The translations under genes and the position numbers were made by a program. From the NCBI RefSeq assembly GCF_017301735.1, contig NZ_CP071090.1, positions 10,034,001 through 10,098,000 on the forward strand: DNA of 64,000 nt. The letters are read 5' to 3'. Origin of the DNA: Pyxidicoccus parkwaysis (lineage in GTDB: Bacteria; Myxococcota; Myxococcia; Myxococcales; Myxococcaceae). Position 1 is the first letter of the stretch. The number at the start of each line of letters is the position of its first letter. Positions 2,700-11,877 of the stretch are shown here, piece after piece. The notes under the pieces are model-generated. The model saw only the letters and a program-made list of their open reading frames with translations, ran no database searches and was not told where the DNA came from.

Positions 2700-2869
2700 G
2701 GCTTCCTTCAACGTCGAGGACTCGGCGCACCATCCTGTCGCCAAGGCGCGCCAGACGCACGCGCAACGATTGCGCGCCCGCCCGGCGAGCGAGGTGGCGA
2801 ACGGTGCACACCCCGCCAGACGGAGAATTGACCGCGTGAAGAAGGGGTTGCTAAGGCCTCGACCCTCCC

Positions 2870-5335
2870 GTGAATCCCTCCTCCGGCGTCACATCGCCCG
2901 AAGCACCCCCACTCCCCCTGGTCTGGGTGCTGGACGACAGCCCGGCGGAGACGGAGGTCATCCGGCGCGCGCTCGCCTCCACCTGCGACGTCGCCGCGTT
3001 CGCGGATGGGGCGGCGCTGCTGGAGTCCCTGGGCCCGCGCGCCATGCCCGAGGTGCTGGTGGTGGACTGGTTCCTCCCCGGCATGACGGGGCTGGACGTG
3101 TGCCGCTTCCTGCGCGGCAACCCCGCCACCGCGCACCTGCCCGTGCTGCTGCTCACCTCCAACACGCACCCGGATGACGTCGTGGAAGGACTGACGGCGG
3201 GCGCCAACGACTACGTCTTCAAGCCCTTCCGTCCCGCGGAGCTGGCCGCGCGTGTGGGGGCGCTCGCGCGCTGGGAGCGCACGCGGCGGCAGGCCCTGGA
3301 GGATGAGCGCGCGCGGCGCCTGCTGGTCGAGGGCACGCTGTCGGAAGTCCAGGTGGCGGAGGAGCGCGCGTGGCGCAGCGAGCTGCGCTTCCGGCTGGCG
3401 GCGCGCGCCACGCGGGACGCGGTGTGGGAGTGGGACCCGCGCACGGGCTCGGTGGACTGGACGAGCGGCGTGCACGAGGTGTTCGGCTACTCGCCCTCGG
3501 CGGTGCGTGACACCTTCCAGTGGTGGGAGGAGCGCCTGCACCCGGAGGACCGCGAGCGCGTGGTGCGGGGAATCCAGGCAACGCTCTCCGGCACGGAGCA
3601 CGAGTGGCAGGACACCTACCGCTTCCAGCGCGCGGACGGCTCGTGGGCCCGCGTGGTGGACCGGTGCCACATCGTCCGCGACGCGAAGGACATGGCGGTG
3701 CAGGTGGTGGGGGCCATGCAGGACGTCACCGAGCACCACGAGGCGGAGGCCGCCCGCGCCCGGCTGCTGGAGCTGGAGCGCCGCGCGCGCGAGGAGGCGG
3801 ACCGTCAGCGCGCCATGCTGGCCACCCTCTTCGAGCAGGTGCCCGCGCTGCTCGGCGTGCTGCGCGCCCCGGACCGGTGCTTCGTGGTGGCCAACGCGCG
3901 GATGCGGCAGCTCTTCGGAGAGCGCCCGCTGGTGGGGCGCCCCATCCACCAGGCCCTGCCGGAGTTGGAGGGCCAGGGGCTGTTGGAGCTGCTGGACACG
4001 GTGTTCGCCACCGGCGAGCCCTTCAGCGCCCGGGAGATGCCCGCGCGCGTGGACCGGCGCAACGACGGCACGCTGTCCGAGGGCTTCTTCGACTTCATGT
4101 ACCAGCCCATGCTGGACGCGGCGGGCCGGGTGGAGGCCGTCATCCTCTTCGCGGTGGAGGTGACGGACACGGTGCTGGCGCGGCGCAAGGAGTCCGAGCT
4201 GGCCGGAGCGCTGCGCGAGAGCGAGCAGCGGCTGCGCTCGGCGCTGGCGGCGGCCAACGTGGGGACGTGGCGGATGGAGCTGGCGTCGCGGATGGAGCTG
4301 CGCGACGCGAACTTCAACCGCATCCTGGGGCTGGAGGCGCGGGAGACGGTCTCCCCGCAGGCGGACTTCCTCGCTCGCGTGCACCCGGAGGACCGGCCCT
4401 CCGTCGAAGCGCACACCGAGCGCGCCATCCGCGAGCGAGGCGCCTTCGAGGCGGAGTACCGCGTGCTCCGCGCGGACGGCGTGGTGCGGTGGATACGGGA
4501 CCAGGGGCGCGTGCTGCCGGATGCGCGGGGCGTGCCCACGTACTTCACCGGCGCGCTGGCGGACATCACCGAGCCGAAGCGGCTGACGGCGGAGATGCGC
4601 GCGCGCGCGGACTTCGAGCGGCAGCTCATCGGCATCGTGAGCCACGATTTGCGCAACCCGCTGAGCGCCATCACGCTGGCGGTGTCCGTGCTGTTGCAGC
4701 GCGGCGGACTGGACGAGCGGATGGAGCGGCACGTGCAGCGCATCCATCGCTCGGCGGAGCGGGCGACGCGGATGATTCGCGACCTGCTGGACTTCACGCG
4801 GGCGCGGCAGGGCGGAGGCATTCCGGTGTTCCCCCGCGCGGTGGAACTGCGCGAGGTGGTGCACGCGGTGGTGGACGAGGTGCAGGCGGCGTCACCGGGG
4901 CGGCGCATCCGCTCGGAGTTCGAGGGGAGCGGCGCGGGGACGTGGGACCCGGACCGGCTGGCGCAGGCACTGAGCAACCTGGTGGGCAATGCGTTGCAGT
5001 ACAGCCCGCCAGACACACCGGTGCGCTTGGTGGCGCGAGGCACGGAGCACGGCGTGGAGGTCGAGGTCCACAACCAGGGGACGCCGATTGCGCCGGAGCG
5101 GCTGCCGCGCATCTTCGAGCCGCTGGAGCGCGGCGCGGAGCGGCCGGAGGACCGCGGAGGCCGGAGCATCGGCCTGGGGCTCTACATCGTCCGCAGCATC
5201 ATCCAGGCGCACGGAGGCACGGTGGACGTGACGTCCACGGCCGAGGCGGGCACCACCTTCACCGTGCGCCTGCCGCGCCATGCGCCCGTGTCCGCCACCG
5301 CGAACCGCGCGGACATGGACGAGGTGGCGGGGTAA
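2870..5335 (+). CDS. Receiver-PAS-PAS-PAS sensor histidine kinase
   Basis: An 821-residue cytoplasmic signalling protein. Domain order: receiver (about 16-135; acidic pair D22/D23, phosphoacceptor D66 in VVDWFLPG, K118 in FKPF), then three PAS-like regions (about 176-290 with WEWDPRTGSVDW and HPEDRERV; 318-440; 445-575 with HPEDRPSVEAH), a dimerisation/phosphotransfer domain (H592 in SHDLRNPLS) and an ATPase domain (GNALQYSP, then GLGLYIV). An N-terminal receiver means it can probably be driven by another kinase as well as by PAS ligands. No membrane segment is seen. The GTG at 2870 is the first start giving a complete receiver, but its ribosome-binding site is weak. No partner response regulator is adjacent. 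Confidence 0.9.
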   Translation: MNPSSGVTSPEAPPLPLVWVLDDSPAETEVIRRALASTCDVAAFADGAALLESLGPRAMPEVLVVDWFLPGMTGLDVCRFLRGNPATAHLPVLLLTSNTHPDDVVEGLTAGANDYVFKPFRPAELAARVGALARWERTRRQALEDERARRLLVEGTLSEVQVAEERAWRSELRFRLAARATRDAVWEWDPRTGSVDWTSGVHEVFGYSPSAVRDTFQWWEERLHPEDRERVVRGIQATLSGTEHEWQDTYRFQRADGSWARVVDRCHIVRDAKDMAVQVVGAMQDVTEHHEAEAARARLLELERRAREEADRQRAMLATLFEQVPALLGVLRAPDRCFVVANARMRQLFGERPLVGRPIHQALPELEGQGLLELLDTVFATGEPFSAREMPARVDRRNDGTLSEGFFDFMYQPMLDAAGRVEAVILFAVEVTDTVLARRKESELAGALRESEQRLRSALAAANVGTWRMELASRMELRDANFNRILGLEARETVSPQADFLARVHPEDRPSVEAHTERAIRERGAFEAEYRVLRADGVVRWIRDQGRVLPDARGVPTYFTGALADITEPKRLTAEMRARADFERQLIGIVSHDLRNPLSAITLAVSVLLQRGGLDERMERHVQRIHRSAERATRMIRDLLDFTRARQGGGIPVFPRAVELREVVHAVVDEVQAASPGRRIRSEFEGSGAGTWDPDRLAQALSNLVGNALQYSPPDTPVRLVARGTEHGVEVEVHNQGTPIAPERLPRIFEPLERGAERPEDRGGRSIGLGLYIVRSIIQAHGGTVDVTSTAEAGTTFTVRLPRHAPVSATANRADMDEVAG

Positions 5336-8568: not shown

Positions 8569-8592
8569 GCCTCTGTGTGATTGAGCGTTCTC

Positions 8593-8626
8593 GGACCCTC
8601 GTGGCGATGGCTGGCCACGAGGGTCC
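8593..8626 (+). terminator. Strong hairpin terminator after the OmpA-type gene
   Basis: Perfect 13-bp stem GGACCCTCGTGGC/GCCACGAGGGTCC with an 8-base loop, 24 bp after the stop codon. It ends the DUF4398-OmpA unit and separates it from the kinase gene at 8761. Confidence 0.7.
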
Positions 8627-8760
8627 TCGTGCATCCAGACCTCGAAAAGGGAACCCGCCATGCTTCGGGGCTCTTGGGTTCGCGCAGCCGAACAGCTAAG
8701 CCCCTACCCACGTTCACGGGGAGCCTGGGCGCAGTGCTCGGGCACGGAGTGGGTGGGACC

Positions 8761-10365
8761 ATGAGCTTCATCGAAGACGTGAAGGACTACCTGCAGCGAG
8801 TCCATGATTCGAAAGACGTTCAGGAACCCACGCCCCCCATCCTGCTGGAGCCAGAATGGATTCGTGCGGAAACGCTGCGACTCCTCGAACGACTCGAGAG
8901 CAAGTCTCCCGAGCCACGTTCCCGGTCGGCCCACACGAAGACCTATTTGCAATGGATGGCTGGGGAGCGCGCCGTTGGGTTCGCAGACATTCTCGCAACA
9001 CTCCTCCAGGAGAGCTTCCTGGCTGGAGCCTCACGCACCGAAATAGAAGACTACGTCAGACTGGCCATCGCGAAACGCATCGGTCTGAAGGAGCGAGCGG
9101 CCACTCTCACAAGAGACCTGGAGCTGGAACACCTTTCCGAGCAGGCATGGGCTGAGAGCGATTCACCGGTAGGTGGACCGGATGATTGGCACTCGATTCC
9201 TGACTACGCCCGCGAGATTCGCGCGACACGTGTTGTGAGAGACCGCGTCGAACTGACGCCTATCGGCAACGTTCTCCTCGCCCTCACGGGACGTGACGCT
9301 GTTCAGTGGCTTCTGAATGTCGAAGCGGCTCAGTCCACCGGCCCCGATGATGACTGGCGCCTGAGCCGCGGAGCCGCGGAGAGACTGCTGAAGTCACCTC
9401 GGTTCGTGGAGGAACCTGGCTACTGGCGCATCGTCGATCACGGCCTGTCCTGGTCCACTCTGCGCCGCCTGCGGGCCCTCGGGTTGTTACAGGTCGTCGA
9501 TGAAATGGCTCTCGAGGAAGACGAGACCGACCTGTTCGGCTACGAGCTCCTCGAACCGGGTATCCGCGCACTGGAGGTGCTACTCACCCCCAACGGAACT
9601 CCCTTCTCCGTCCTTGCCGCCACGCTCAGCCAGGACGAAGCGCTCGCCGCGCTAGAGGGTAGCTCCGGCCGGGCACTCCCGGAGGCCAGCCTCAACACTT
9701 CCGCCATGGCCACCGCCCGCCAGGCCCGCCTCGTCGCGCATGAAATCCGCAACGCCCTCATCCCCGCCCAGGTGGCACTGAGCTCCCTCTACGGCGCACT
9801 CGGTGGAAGCAGCGCGGAAACAGAACTGACCCGACTCCGCCCTCGCATCGACCCCGGCATCAACCGCGTCCTCAAGTTCGTCAACGACCTGCTCAAGACC
9901 TCCGAGCTGGCCACCCGCCCTCCCGAGGCCTTCAACCTCTTCCGTGCCGTGGTGGACGCCAAGTCGAGCATCAGCACCACGCTCGGCATTGGCGTGAGCG
10001 GCTCCATGGACCTGCCCTCCGTGCTCGGCTACCGCGAGCGCTTCGTCCTCGCCGTGGTCAACCTGCTCCGCAACGCCGAGCAGGTCGGAGCGAAGAACGT
10101 CGACATCACCGTCACCCTGGAGGACGACAGCCAGAACCTGCTCCTCCTCGTGGACGACGATGGCCCCGGCGTCTCCGTCGAACATCGCGAGCGCATCTTC
10201 CAGCGAGGTGTCACCCTTCGCACAGGCGGCGCGGGCGAAGGGCTCGCCCTCGTGAAGGAGGTCATCGAGTTCGAGCTTCGTGGGAAGATTGCCTGTGTGG
10301 ACAAGCCTGGGGGCGGCGCCCGTTTCCAGATGCGGCTGCCTGTGGCAGAGAGGAGCCTGCGATGA
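8761..10365 (+). CDS. Soluble histidine kinase with novel N-terminal domain
   Basis: A 534-residue protein. The C-terminal third is a histidine kinase: the H box LVAHEIRNALIPAQ (H327), the N box VVNLLRNAEQ (N438), DDDGPGV, and a glycine-rich GGAGEGLALVKEV segment. The first roughly 310 residues match no sensor domain I recognise. They lack membrane segments and PAS/GAF motifs, and contain a stretch (VELTPIGNVLLALTGRDAVQ) reminiscent of a winged-helix or helical scaffold. The ATG at 8761 follows GGAG/GGG; an upstream in-frame GTG would read through the spacer. The stop overlaps the start of the next gene by 4 bp (ATGA), so kinase and regulator are co-translated. Base composition in the N-terminal half is less GC-rich than in neighbouring genes. 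Confidence 0.85.
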   Translation: MSFIEDVKDYLQRVHDSKDVQEPTPPILLEPEWIRAETLRLLERLESKSPEPRSRSAHTKTYLQWMAGERAVGFADILATLLQESFLAGASRTEIEDYVRLAIAKRIGLKERAATLTRDLELEHLSEQAWAESDSPVGGPDDWHSIPDYAREIRATRVVRDRVELTPIGNVLLALTGRDAVQWLLNVEAAQSTGPDDDWRLSRGAAERLLKSPRFVEEPGYWRIVDHGLSWSTLRRLRALGLLQVVDEMALEEDETDLFGYELLEPGIRALEVLLTPNGTPFSVLAATLSQDEALAALEGSSGRALPEASLNTSAMATARQARLVAHEIRNALIPAQVALSSLYGALGGSSAETELTRLRPRIDPGINRVLKFVNDLLKTSELATRPPEAFNLFRAVVDAKSSISTTLGIGVSGSMDLPSVLGYRERFVLAVVNLLRNAEQVGAKNVDITVTLEDDSQNLLLLVDDDGPGVSVEHRERIFQRGVTLRTGGAGEGLALVKEVIEFELRGKIACVDKPGGGARFQMRLPVAERSLR

Positions 10366-11285
10366 TTCCCCTGGGCAACGTGCTGGTCGTCGACGACGAG
10401 CAGCCCTTCTTCGAGACCTACCGCGACCTCCTCCAGCGCGAGGGCTACCACGTCGACTGGGCCGCCGACCGCGAGGCCGCCCTCTCGAAGCTCCGCACCT
10501 CCACCTGGGACGTCGTGATTCTGGACCAGCGCCTGCGCGGCGAGGCCGGCGGCGACGTGGGCATCGACCTCGTCTCGGAAATCGTCCCCACGGGTGCAAA
10601 GGTCATCATCGCCACCGCCTACGCGGACGAACGGATGATTGAGCGCGCCTTCAAGGACGGCGCCTACGACTACCTGGAGAAGGTATCCACGCTTCCCATG
10701 ATGTTGCGCATCAAGGTCCGCAACGCCTCCGAAACCGTGCGCGAGCGGCGCCGCGCCGCGCTCACCGACGCGGAGCGCGAGAAGGAAATCCGCAACCTCT
10801 GGGACGCTGTCCGCACCGAGGCGGACCGCAACCGCAAGGGCCAGCTCCTCGAGGACCTCATGGTCCTCTTGTTCAGGACGGTGCCGGGCTTCATCCACAC
10901 GGAGACCCGCCGCAAGGGCCCCGAGGAAGAGCTCGACCTCTTCATCCGCAATGAGTCCTCCGAGCCTTTCTGGGCCCGCGACGGCTCTCAGTACGTCATC
11001 GTCGAATGCAAGAACTGGTCGAAGCCAGCCGGCCCCAATGAGCTGGTCGTCTTCCGGGACAAGATGCTGAACCGTGGGGGCCGATGCCGCCTCGGCTTCT
11101 TCGTCGCAGTGGGAGGCTTCACGGAAGGCTTCTCATCCCGCTCCGCCACGTTCCGTAAAGACGACCTGCTCGTCGTACCCGTGGGCCCGGAGGACCTCGA
11201 CGAATTGGTCAACGCCAAGGACCGGAGCGCCGTGTTGAAGAAGCTCCACGGCAACGCGGTCATGGCGGGCAACGGCCACCACTGA
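10362..11285 (+). CDS. Response regulator fused to a PD-(D/E)XK nuclease-like domain
   Basis: A 307-residue two-domain protein. Residues 5-125 are a canonical receiver: acidic pair D11/D12, phosphoacceptor D55 in VILDQRLRG, TA at 85-86 and K107 in YLEK. After a charged helical linker, residues 155-290 look like an Mrr-type restriction endonuclease fold: KGQLLEDLM (E164), EELDLFI (D192), then VIVECKNW (E215, K217), the E-D-ExK arrangement of PD-(D/E)XK enzymes, followed by a helix and FFVAVGGF. A phosphorylation-gated nuclease, or a DNA-binding derivative, is the inference. It is translationally coupled to the kinase at 8761, and a GNAT gene follows after 10 bp. Receiver-nuclease fusions are rare among response-regulator outputs. 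Confidence 0.82.
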   Translation: MIPLGNVLVVDDEQPFFETYRDLLQREGYHVDWAADREAALSKLRTSTWDVVILDQRLRGEAGGDVGIDLVSEIVPTGAKVIIATAYADERMIERAFKDGAYDYLEKVSTLPMMLRIKVRNASETVRERRRAALTDAEREKEIRNLWDAVRTEADRNRKGQLLEDLMVLLFRTVPGFIHTETRRKGPEEELDLFIRNESSEPFWARDGSQYVIVECKNWSKPAGPNELVVFRDKMLNRGGRCRLGFFVAVGGFTEGFSSRSATFRKDDLLVVPVGPEDLDELVNAKDRSAVLKKLHGNAVMAGNGHH

Positions 11286-11295
11286 GTCTCGTGCC

Positions 11296-11877
11296 ATGGC
11301 CTCCGACACCTCCGCCCTGCTCACCACCGAGCGTCTCCATCTGGCGCTGCTTCCGCCGGATGCGGCGTGGCGGGTGCTCGCCTATCACGAGGCCAACCGT
11401 GAGCACTTCGGCCCGGTGTCTCCCGCGCGGCCCGCCAACTTCTTCTCCGTGACGTACTGGCGCACCCGGCTCGCGCAGGACCGCGAGGACTTCCGTCACG
11501 ACCTGTCCCTGCGCCTGCTCCTCCTCCCCCGCTCCGAGCCCCTCGCCACCGCGCCCATCGTCGGCAGCATCTCCCTCACGCACATCCGCCGAGGCCCCCT
11601 CCAGGCCGCGGACCTCGGCTACGCGCTCGACCGCCAACACGAGGGACGGGGACTCATGACCGAAGGCCTCCGCGCCGTCTGCGATTACGCCTTCGGCACC
11701 ATGAGCCTGCACCGCCTCCAGGCCAACCACCTCCCGGAGAACCTCAAGAGCGCCGCCGTCCTCCGCCGCCTCGGCTTCGTCGTGGAGGGCTACGCCCGAG
11801 ACTTCCTCCTCATCGACGGCCGCTGGCGGGACCACGTCCTCACCAGCCTCGTCGCTCCGCATGACGACGCCCGCTAG
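11296..11877 (+). CDS. GNAT N-acetyltransferase, RimJ/RimL type
   Basis: A 193-residue GNAT enzyme of the ribosomal-protein-alanine acetyltransferase type, which transfers acetyl from acetyl-CoA to an amine. Visible motifs: an N-terminal LTTERLHLALL beta strand, the acetyl-CoA-binding segment DRQHEGRGLMTEGL (the R/Q-x-x-G-x-G/A loop is the variant HEGRGL), and the C-terminal NLKSAAVLRRLGFVVEGYARDF typical of RimJ-like proteins, shown here in part. It starts 10 bp after the receiver-nuclease gene, so it is probably in the same transcript; whether it functions with that pair is unknown. The S9 peptidase gene converges only 13 bp away. Confidence 0.87.
   Translation: MASDTSALLTTERLHLALLPPDAAWRVLAYHEANREHFGPVSPARPANFFSVTYWRTRLAQDREDFRHDLSLRLLLLPRSEPLATAPIVGSISLTHIRRGPLQAADLGYALDRQHEGRGLMTEGLRAVCDYAFGTMSLHRLQANHLPENLKSAAVLRRLGFVVEGYARDFLLIDGRWRDHVLTSLVAPHDDAR

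Follow-up and report, generated by a model that had tools for sequence, protein, structure and literature searches.

A candidate phosphorylation-gated nuclease system encoded by two genes in Pyxidicoccus parkwaysis, with a predicted role in defence

Response regulators mostly carry DNA-binding or second-messenger outputs; a nuclease under phosphotransfer would, if confirmed, provide a fast, transcription-free route from sensing to DNA cleavage. The closest described system is Detocs, a defensive two-component system of three genes, of which the best-described effector degrades ATP (PMC11249213). A second response regulator with an enzymatic output is PorX, which carries a PglZ phosphodiesterase (PMC12839542). 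Here, we describe a pair of genes in Pyxidicoccus parkwaysis that encodes a soluble histidine kinase and a response regulator fused to an Mrr-like nuclease domain (Table 1). The pair is located in a stretch of 64,000 nucleotides (bases 10,034,001–10,098,000 of the 13.2-Mb single-contig genome), which is called the window in this text. We propose that the two genes form a phosphorylation-gated defensive nuclease, and we estimate the probability of this reading, taken as a whole, at about 60%. If this is correct, nucleases would join the outputs through which defensive two-component systems act. The pair is small (2.5 kb) and has clear catalytic residues in three modules.

We compared the pair with each of the related systems. 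As in Detocs, a histidine kinase is combined with a response regulator whose effector domain is enzymatic, and here predicted to be toxic; a defensive role is proposed for the pair as well. The third Detocs gene, a stand-alone receiver, has no counterpart here, since only two genes are common to the loci. The effectors also differ: Detocs uses a PNP-type ATP-cleaving domain, whereas the present regulator carries Mrr_cat and gives no PNP match. The N-terminus of the present kinase is not recognised by Pfam as a repeat domain, unlike that of Detocs. Nuclease effectors are said to occur among Detocs variants. Because it lacks both the third gene and a PNP effector, we have not filed the pair as Detocs; by analogy, it may work as a Detocs of two genes would if its output were a nuclease, probably with an antiviral role. 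In Shedu, a PD-(D/E)XK effector (SduA, a DUF4263 nuclease with variable N-terminal sensors) is combined with interchangeable regulators. An identity with Shedu was considered and rejected, since Pfam gives Mrr_cat and not DUF4263, and the one SduA model of PADLOC that matches the regulator does so at the receiver only (2.5e-6, residues 6–98); the separate histidine kinase is a further difference. Regarding the Mrr or type IV restriction endonuclease domain (PF04471), the output domain belongs to the same family by Pfam score and has the PD-(D/E)XK core and the ExK motif; however, it is linked to a receiver and a kinase, and none of the features seen here is that of a methylated-DNA reader. PorX resembles the present regulator in that its output enzyme has nucleic acids as substrate, as is predicted here, but its domain is of the PglZ alkaline-phosphatase type and controls secretion, whereas the present one is PD-(D/E)XK. 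As judged by sequence, the pair belongs to both the two-component and the Mrr_cat families. In DefensePredictor, HATPase and REC domains are named in a figure that shows predicted defence systems (PMC13092281). No published receiver–Mrr fusion with its own kinase was found in the databases and literature searched, the latter without most subscription journals and thus without the papers on Detocs and Shedu.

A preliminary description of this DNA had proposed a soluble histidine kinase with H327 and an unrecognised N-terminus of 310 residues, followed, with an ATGA overlap, by a complete receiver (D55, K107) fused to an Mrr-like nuclease array. The coordinates, the overlap and the key residues are all as first noted, and the kinase start at 8761 is common to the homologues; the nearest homologous locus, among the named ones, is that of Archangium violaceum. 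In Pfam, the kinase matches HATPase_c (2e-17) and weakly HisKA (0.011, below the Pfam cut-off), and no family matches residues 1–310. The highest mean hydropathy over 19 residues is 1.26, and there is no long hydrophobic stretch; thus, with nothing hydrophobic enough for a membrane helix, the kinase is predicted to be soluble. H327, E328, N331, N438, D466, G468, G470, G492 and G494 are invariant in 14 kinase homologues, so that the phospho-acceptor histidine and the N, G1 and G2 boxes of a two-component kinase are all present. In the regulator, Response_reg is matched at residues 7–110 (2.4e-19), and D11, D12, D55, T85 and K107, which make up the acid pocket, the phospho-acceptor aspartate, the T/S position and the lysine of a receiver, are invariant in 15 homologues, down to 35% identity. 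Structures in the PDB match the kinase model at its core (Z about 17–19) and the regulator model at its receiver (Z 19–21). These fold lists are taken up by kinase cores and receivers, and have no bearing on the nuclease domain or the kinase N-terminus.

The nuclease assignment of the preliminary description is borne out by the family match, the conserved residues and the model. Mrr_cat is matched at residues 160–255 (2.3e-6, with a score of 28.1 bits where the cut-off is 21) and in 13/13 aligned family members at E 0.1 or better, with a best value of 3.6e-9. The AlphaFold2 model of the regulator (mean pLDDT 85) has a receiver core (1–110), a long helix (111–132), a second helix (136–152) and then the nuclease core, which is composed of a helix (156–172), three strands (180–182, 193–196 and 211–217), a helix (225–236) and a last strand (242–249). 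This α-β-β-β-α-β core has the Mrr-like PD-(D/E)XK topology, and in the model D192 borders the second strand while E215 and K217 lie within the third, as in the canonical placement. A structural match to a PD-(D/E)XK fold had been set beforehand as a test of the assignment; besides the model itself, Foldseek against a viral library matched, in addition to receivers, models of restriction endonuclease (REase) and Mrr domains (E 7.9e-5 to 1.1e-3). A sequence search of the PDB with the nuclease domain returned nothing significant. A loss of the E/D/ExK residues in homologues, raised at the outset as a possible finding against the assignment, is not what we see: E164, E189, D192, E215, C216, K217, N218 and W219 are invariant in the same 15 homologues. 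This conservation bears on the possibility that the domain is a phospho-controlled DNA binder that does not cut, so that the regulator would be an unusual transcription regulator. Most response regulators bind DNA, as do Mrr-like domains, to which this domain is assigned; however, binding alone would not require that E164, D192, E215 and K217 stay invariant, and we consider this explanation very unlikely.

The putative sensor part of the kinase shows a different pattern. In a comparison of the window with its nearest relative, identity is 71% for the kinase N-terminus and 91% for the kinase core, with the kinase core, receiver and nuclease all within 87–93%. If a system follows a trigger that changes, its sensor would be expected to evolve fast and its effector to stay conserved, although other sensors show the same pattern. 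In the AlphaFold2 model (overall pLDDT 74; N-terminus mostly 70–90), the N-terminus appears helical to residue 133, followed by what we read as two winged-helix-like units at about 146–275. Against PDB sequences, it gives sub-threshold matches only, to transcription regulators (E 0.09–0.2).

The kinase and the regulator are strictly paired. In a search over 145 genomes of the order, the C-terminal domain of the regulator is matched in 17, and the full pair occurs in 14 myxobacterial genomes, about one in ten, at several sites and always with the kinase directly upstream of the regulator; the same adjacency holds in one planctomycete. A profile of the kinase N-terminus, run over 142 genomes, is positive in 15, every one of which has the regulator or else a pair remnant, and the N-terminus is present as a single copy in the window genome. 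Fisher's test on these co-occurrence counts gives 2e-19, a value that ignores shared ancestry, and the divergence of the kinase correlates with that of the regulator (r = 0.97, uncorrected for shared ancestry). The preliminary description had allowed for a strictly conserved housekeeping pair; the patchy, mobile and single-copy occurrence speaks otherwise. Full-length receiver–nuclease relatives are absent from the 72,556 plasmids and 50,697 phages searched, and the one match on a viral contig (L066) is a stand-alone nuclease. The planctomycete relative was found by scanning genome contigs for short exact patterns, an approach that underestimates the true spread. In two genomes (G077 and G082), remnants are left that have lost the kinase core and the receiver, while the nuclease domain is still open and has its ECKNW motif; at one of these loci (L045), the N-terminal region of the kinase appears to have been joined to the nuclease by an internal deletion. 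These remnants bear on the sign of the switch, which sequence does not fix. With the reverse sign, phosphorylation would keep the regulator inactive, and the nuclease would become active on loss or inhibition of the kinase, in the manner of a toxin held in check by a kinase antitoxin. The overlap and constant co-occurrence of the two genes are as in toxin–antitoxin pairs. Against this, the nuclease domain is still open in two genomes that have no kinase; with the kinase as antidote, this would carry a cost, although the receiver is missing from these copies too and they may be silent. We regard the reverse sign as decidedly unlikely.

The genomic positions show that the pair behaves as a mobile unit. 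In the genus of the window, it is present in 4/27 genomes, at two unrelated sites. The window and G114 have it flanked by an OmpA-family gene and an acetyltransferase gene; in the nearest relatives without the pair, these two genes are separated by a gap of about 77 bp, which is a clean empty site. In G098 and G120, of the same genus, this first site is empty and a 51%-identical version is found elsewhere. In the regulator tree, the members of genus g1 are split, as are those of g3, with starred branches. The patchiness, the sites and the tree indicate a putative history of horizontal transfer, or of an old pair that was lost repeatedly; with empty sites this clean, it is more likely that both genes were gained, or precisely lost, as a unit. 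In g1 and g6, the pair lies between the same core genes, so long-term inheritance is also possible. Such vertical inheritance would suit a phospho-gated nuclease that serves the cell's own DNA, in damage repair, DNA uptake or programmed developmental lysis, and myxobacteria have many development-linked two-component systems. A role of this kind is unlikely, however, given that 23/27 genomes of the genus lack the pair, that it occurs at unrelated sites and in an integron cassette, and that its sister nuclease domains are found in conflict-type proteins, as described below.

The planctomycete copy is the first cassette of an integron, on a contig (L030) of a Planctomycetota metagenome-assembled genome. 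A short kinase without a sensor domain (2072–2800) is followed by a receiver–nuclease (2800–3720; 35% identity), and an integron integrase is encoded divergently upstream (TIGR02249, 2.8e-124). The attI-side junction GTTAGGC (2048) and the sequence GCCTAAC (3737), the latter just 3′ of the regulator, are exact reverse complements. The R′ sequence GTTGAAC is at 3820, and the DNA between it and GCCTAAC folds to a strong hairpin (z −4.9). The locus has the features expected of a complete integron cassette: an intact integrase, an attI-side junction and a terminal attC-like end with an R″ complementary to the 5′ junction. The cassette holds two genes, and no other single observation points as strongly to these two being enough to make up the unit. 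Integrons are known to harbour small defence systems; among the integron cassettes of Vibrio cholerae, about 10% had anti-phage activity (PMC12409362).

The sister nuclease domains belong to the same ECKNW Mrr-like branch, but different sensor modules take the position of the kinase and receiver. In a myxobacterial locus (L048), the domain is fused to HEPN_Toprim_N (hhalign, 2.1e-25), and in another (L049) its fusion partner is an nSTAND NTPase, with a TIR-STAND gene next to the fusion (hhalign, 2.7e-16). A nuclease of the same branch on a plasmid of Kozakia baliensis (L067:2337–6413) is in a row with SIR2 and HerA-like ATPase genes. These predicted fusions and neighbours of the sister domains are typical of conflict systems. 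Regarding the pair itself, a Septu-like PtuA/PtuB pair (L040:6309–8554) lies one gene from the regulator in G098 and is absent at the same place in G120. A defensive role, raised in the preliminary description as a possibility, is thus backed circumstantially by the mobility, the integron cassette, the sister architectures and one Septu neighbour; in the window, the pair is not part of a classic defence island.

Several further observations concern these sister loci. In L048, the HEPN_Toprim_N–Mrr gene (8590–9903) is directly followed by an uncharacterised gene of 231 aa; PADLOC gave no match at this locus. In L049 (8986–13973), a TIR-STAND-TPR gene is followed by the overlapping nSTAND–Mrr gene, and the two form a candidate conflict pair. 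On the Kozakia baliensis plasmid, the nuclease–SIR2–HerA row adjoins two toxin–antitoxin pairs and a transposase.

Taken together, the two genes would form a self-contained, mobile two-component switch with a predicted nuclease output, for which defence against phages or foreign DNA is the most likely setting. The variable N-terminus of the kinase would sense a cytoplasmic event, and the kinase would autophosphorylate at H327 and pass the phosphate to D55 of the receiver, as in the families to which the modules belong. The phosphorylated receiver would then alter the state of the Mrr-type PD-(D/E)XK domain, probably its dimerisation or release, with control exerted through the helical linker (111–152), again by analogy with the families. 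Once activated, the domain is predicted to cut DNA, so that the invader would be cleaved or the infected cell killed. A fuller version is a so far undescribed immune system of two genes, in which the dedicated soluble kinase senses infection within the cytoplasm and phosphotransfer switches on the receiver–Mrr nuclease, with a constant core, a sensor that is exchanged or evolves fast, and movement between phyla, including as a cassette. We offer this version tentatively, with chances a little short of even.

Several observations weigh against the proposed phosphorylation-gated defensive nuclease. The window pair lies between ordinary chromosomal genes, outside any defence island, and PADLOC has no matching nuclease model for the regulator. 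At the myxobacterial sites, alignment of the flanks, inspected by eye, gave no transposon-like or duplicated ends and no cassette- or element-like ones. The nucleases of L042 and L045 persist without kinase and receiver, which fits decay, and the receiver may or may not act as a restraint on the nuclease. Lastly, the model of the kinase N-terminus is of moderate confidence and has no fold match of its own, the PDB fold lists being filled by kinase cores.

Table 1. Features of the kinase and receiver–nuclease pair, its surroundings in the window and related loci; positions without a contig prefix are those of the window.
Feature	Position	Strand	Remarks
Soluble histidine kinase, 534 aa	8761–10365	+	N-terminal putative sensor 1–310, DHp with H327, CA/HATPase about 386–530
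Putative sensor domain of the kinase (residues 1–310)	8761–9690	+	AlphaFold2 secondary structure
Response regulator–nuclease fusion, 307 aa	10362–11285	+	Response_reg and Mrr_cat
Receiver domain (regulator residues 1–125)	10362–10736	+	D11, D12, D55, T85, K107
Mrr-like PD-(D/E)XK domain (regulator residues 156–300)	10827–11261	+	E164, E189, D192, E215-C-K217, N218, W219
Acetyltransferase, RimJ-like	11296–11877		
Intergenic region 5′ of the pair, with hairpin	8569–8760	+	
Kinase and receiver–nuclease cassette	L030:2048–3826		Planctomycetota contig, first integron cassette
Pair remnants	L042:9694–10317 and L045:121–1187		Nuclease domain open, motif kept

The acetyltransferase noted early on 3′ of the pair is RimJ-like; it is part of the core chromosome and not of the system. 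As a third component it was rejected, since it is present in 27/27 genomes of the genus, most of them without the pair, and adjoins the OmpA-family gene where the pair is absent. In another genome (G102), about 2 kb of other DNA (L104:3653–5643) lies between the OmpA-family and acetyltransferase genes, with no pair; this site may be a general insertion spot. Upstream of the pair, a search of region 8569–8760 for a sigma-70 promoter gave no match. A hairpin with a 13-bp stem and a clear fold is located 3′ of the OmpA-family gene, at about 8593–8626; it has no T-run and was not called a terminator. The same hairpin is found in the nearest relative (G114), with changes that preserve the stem.

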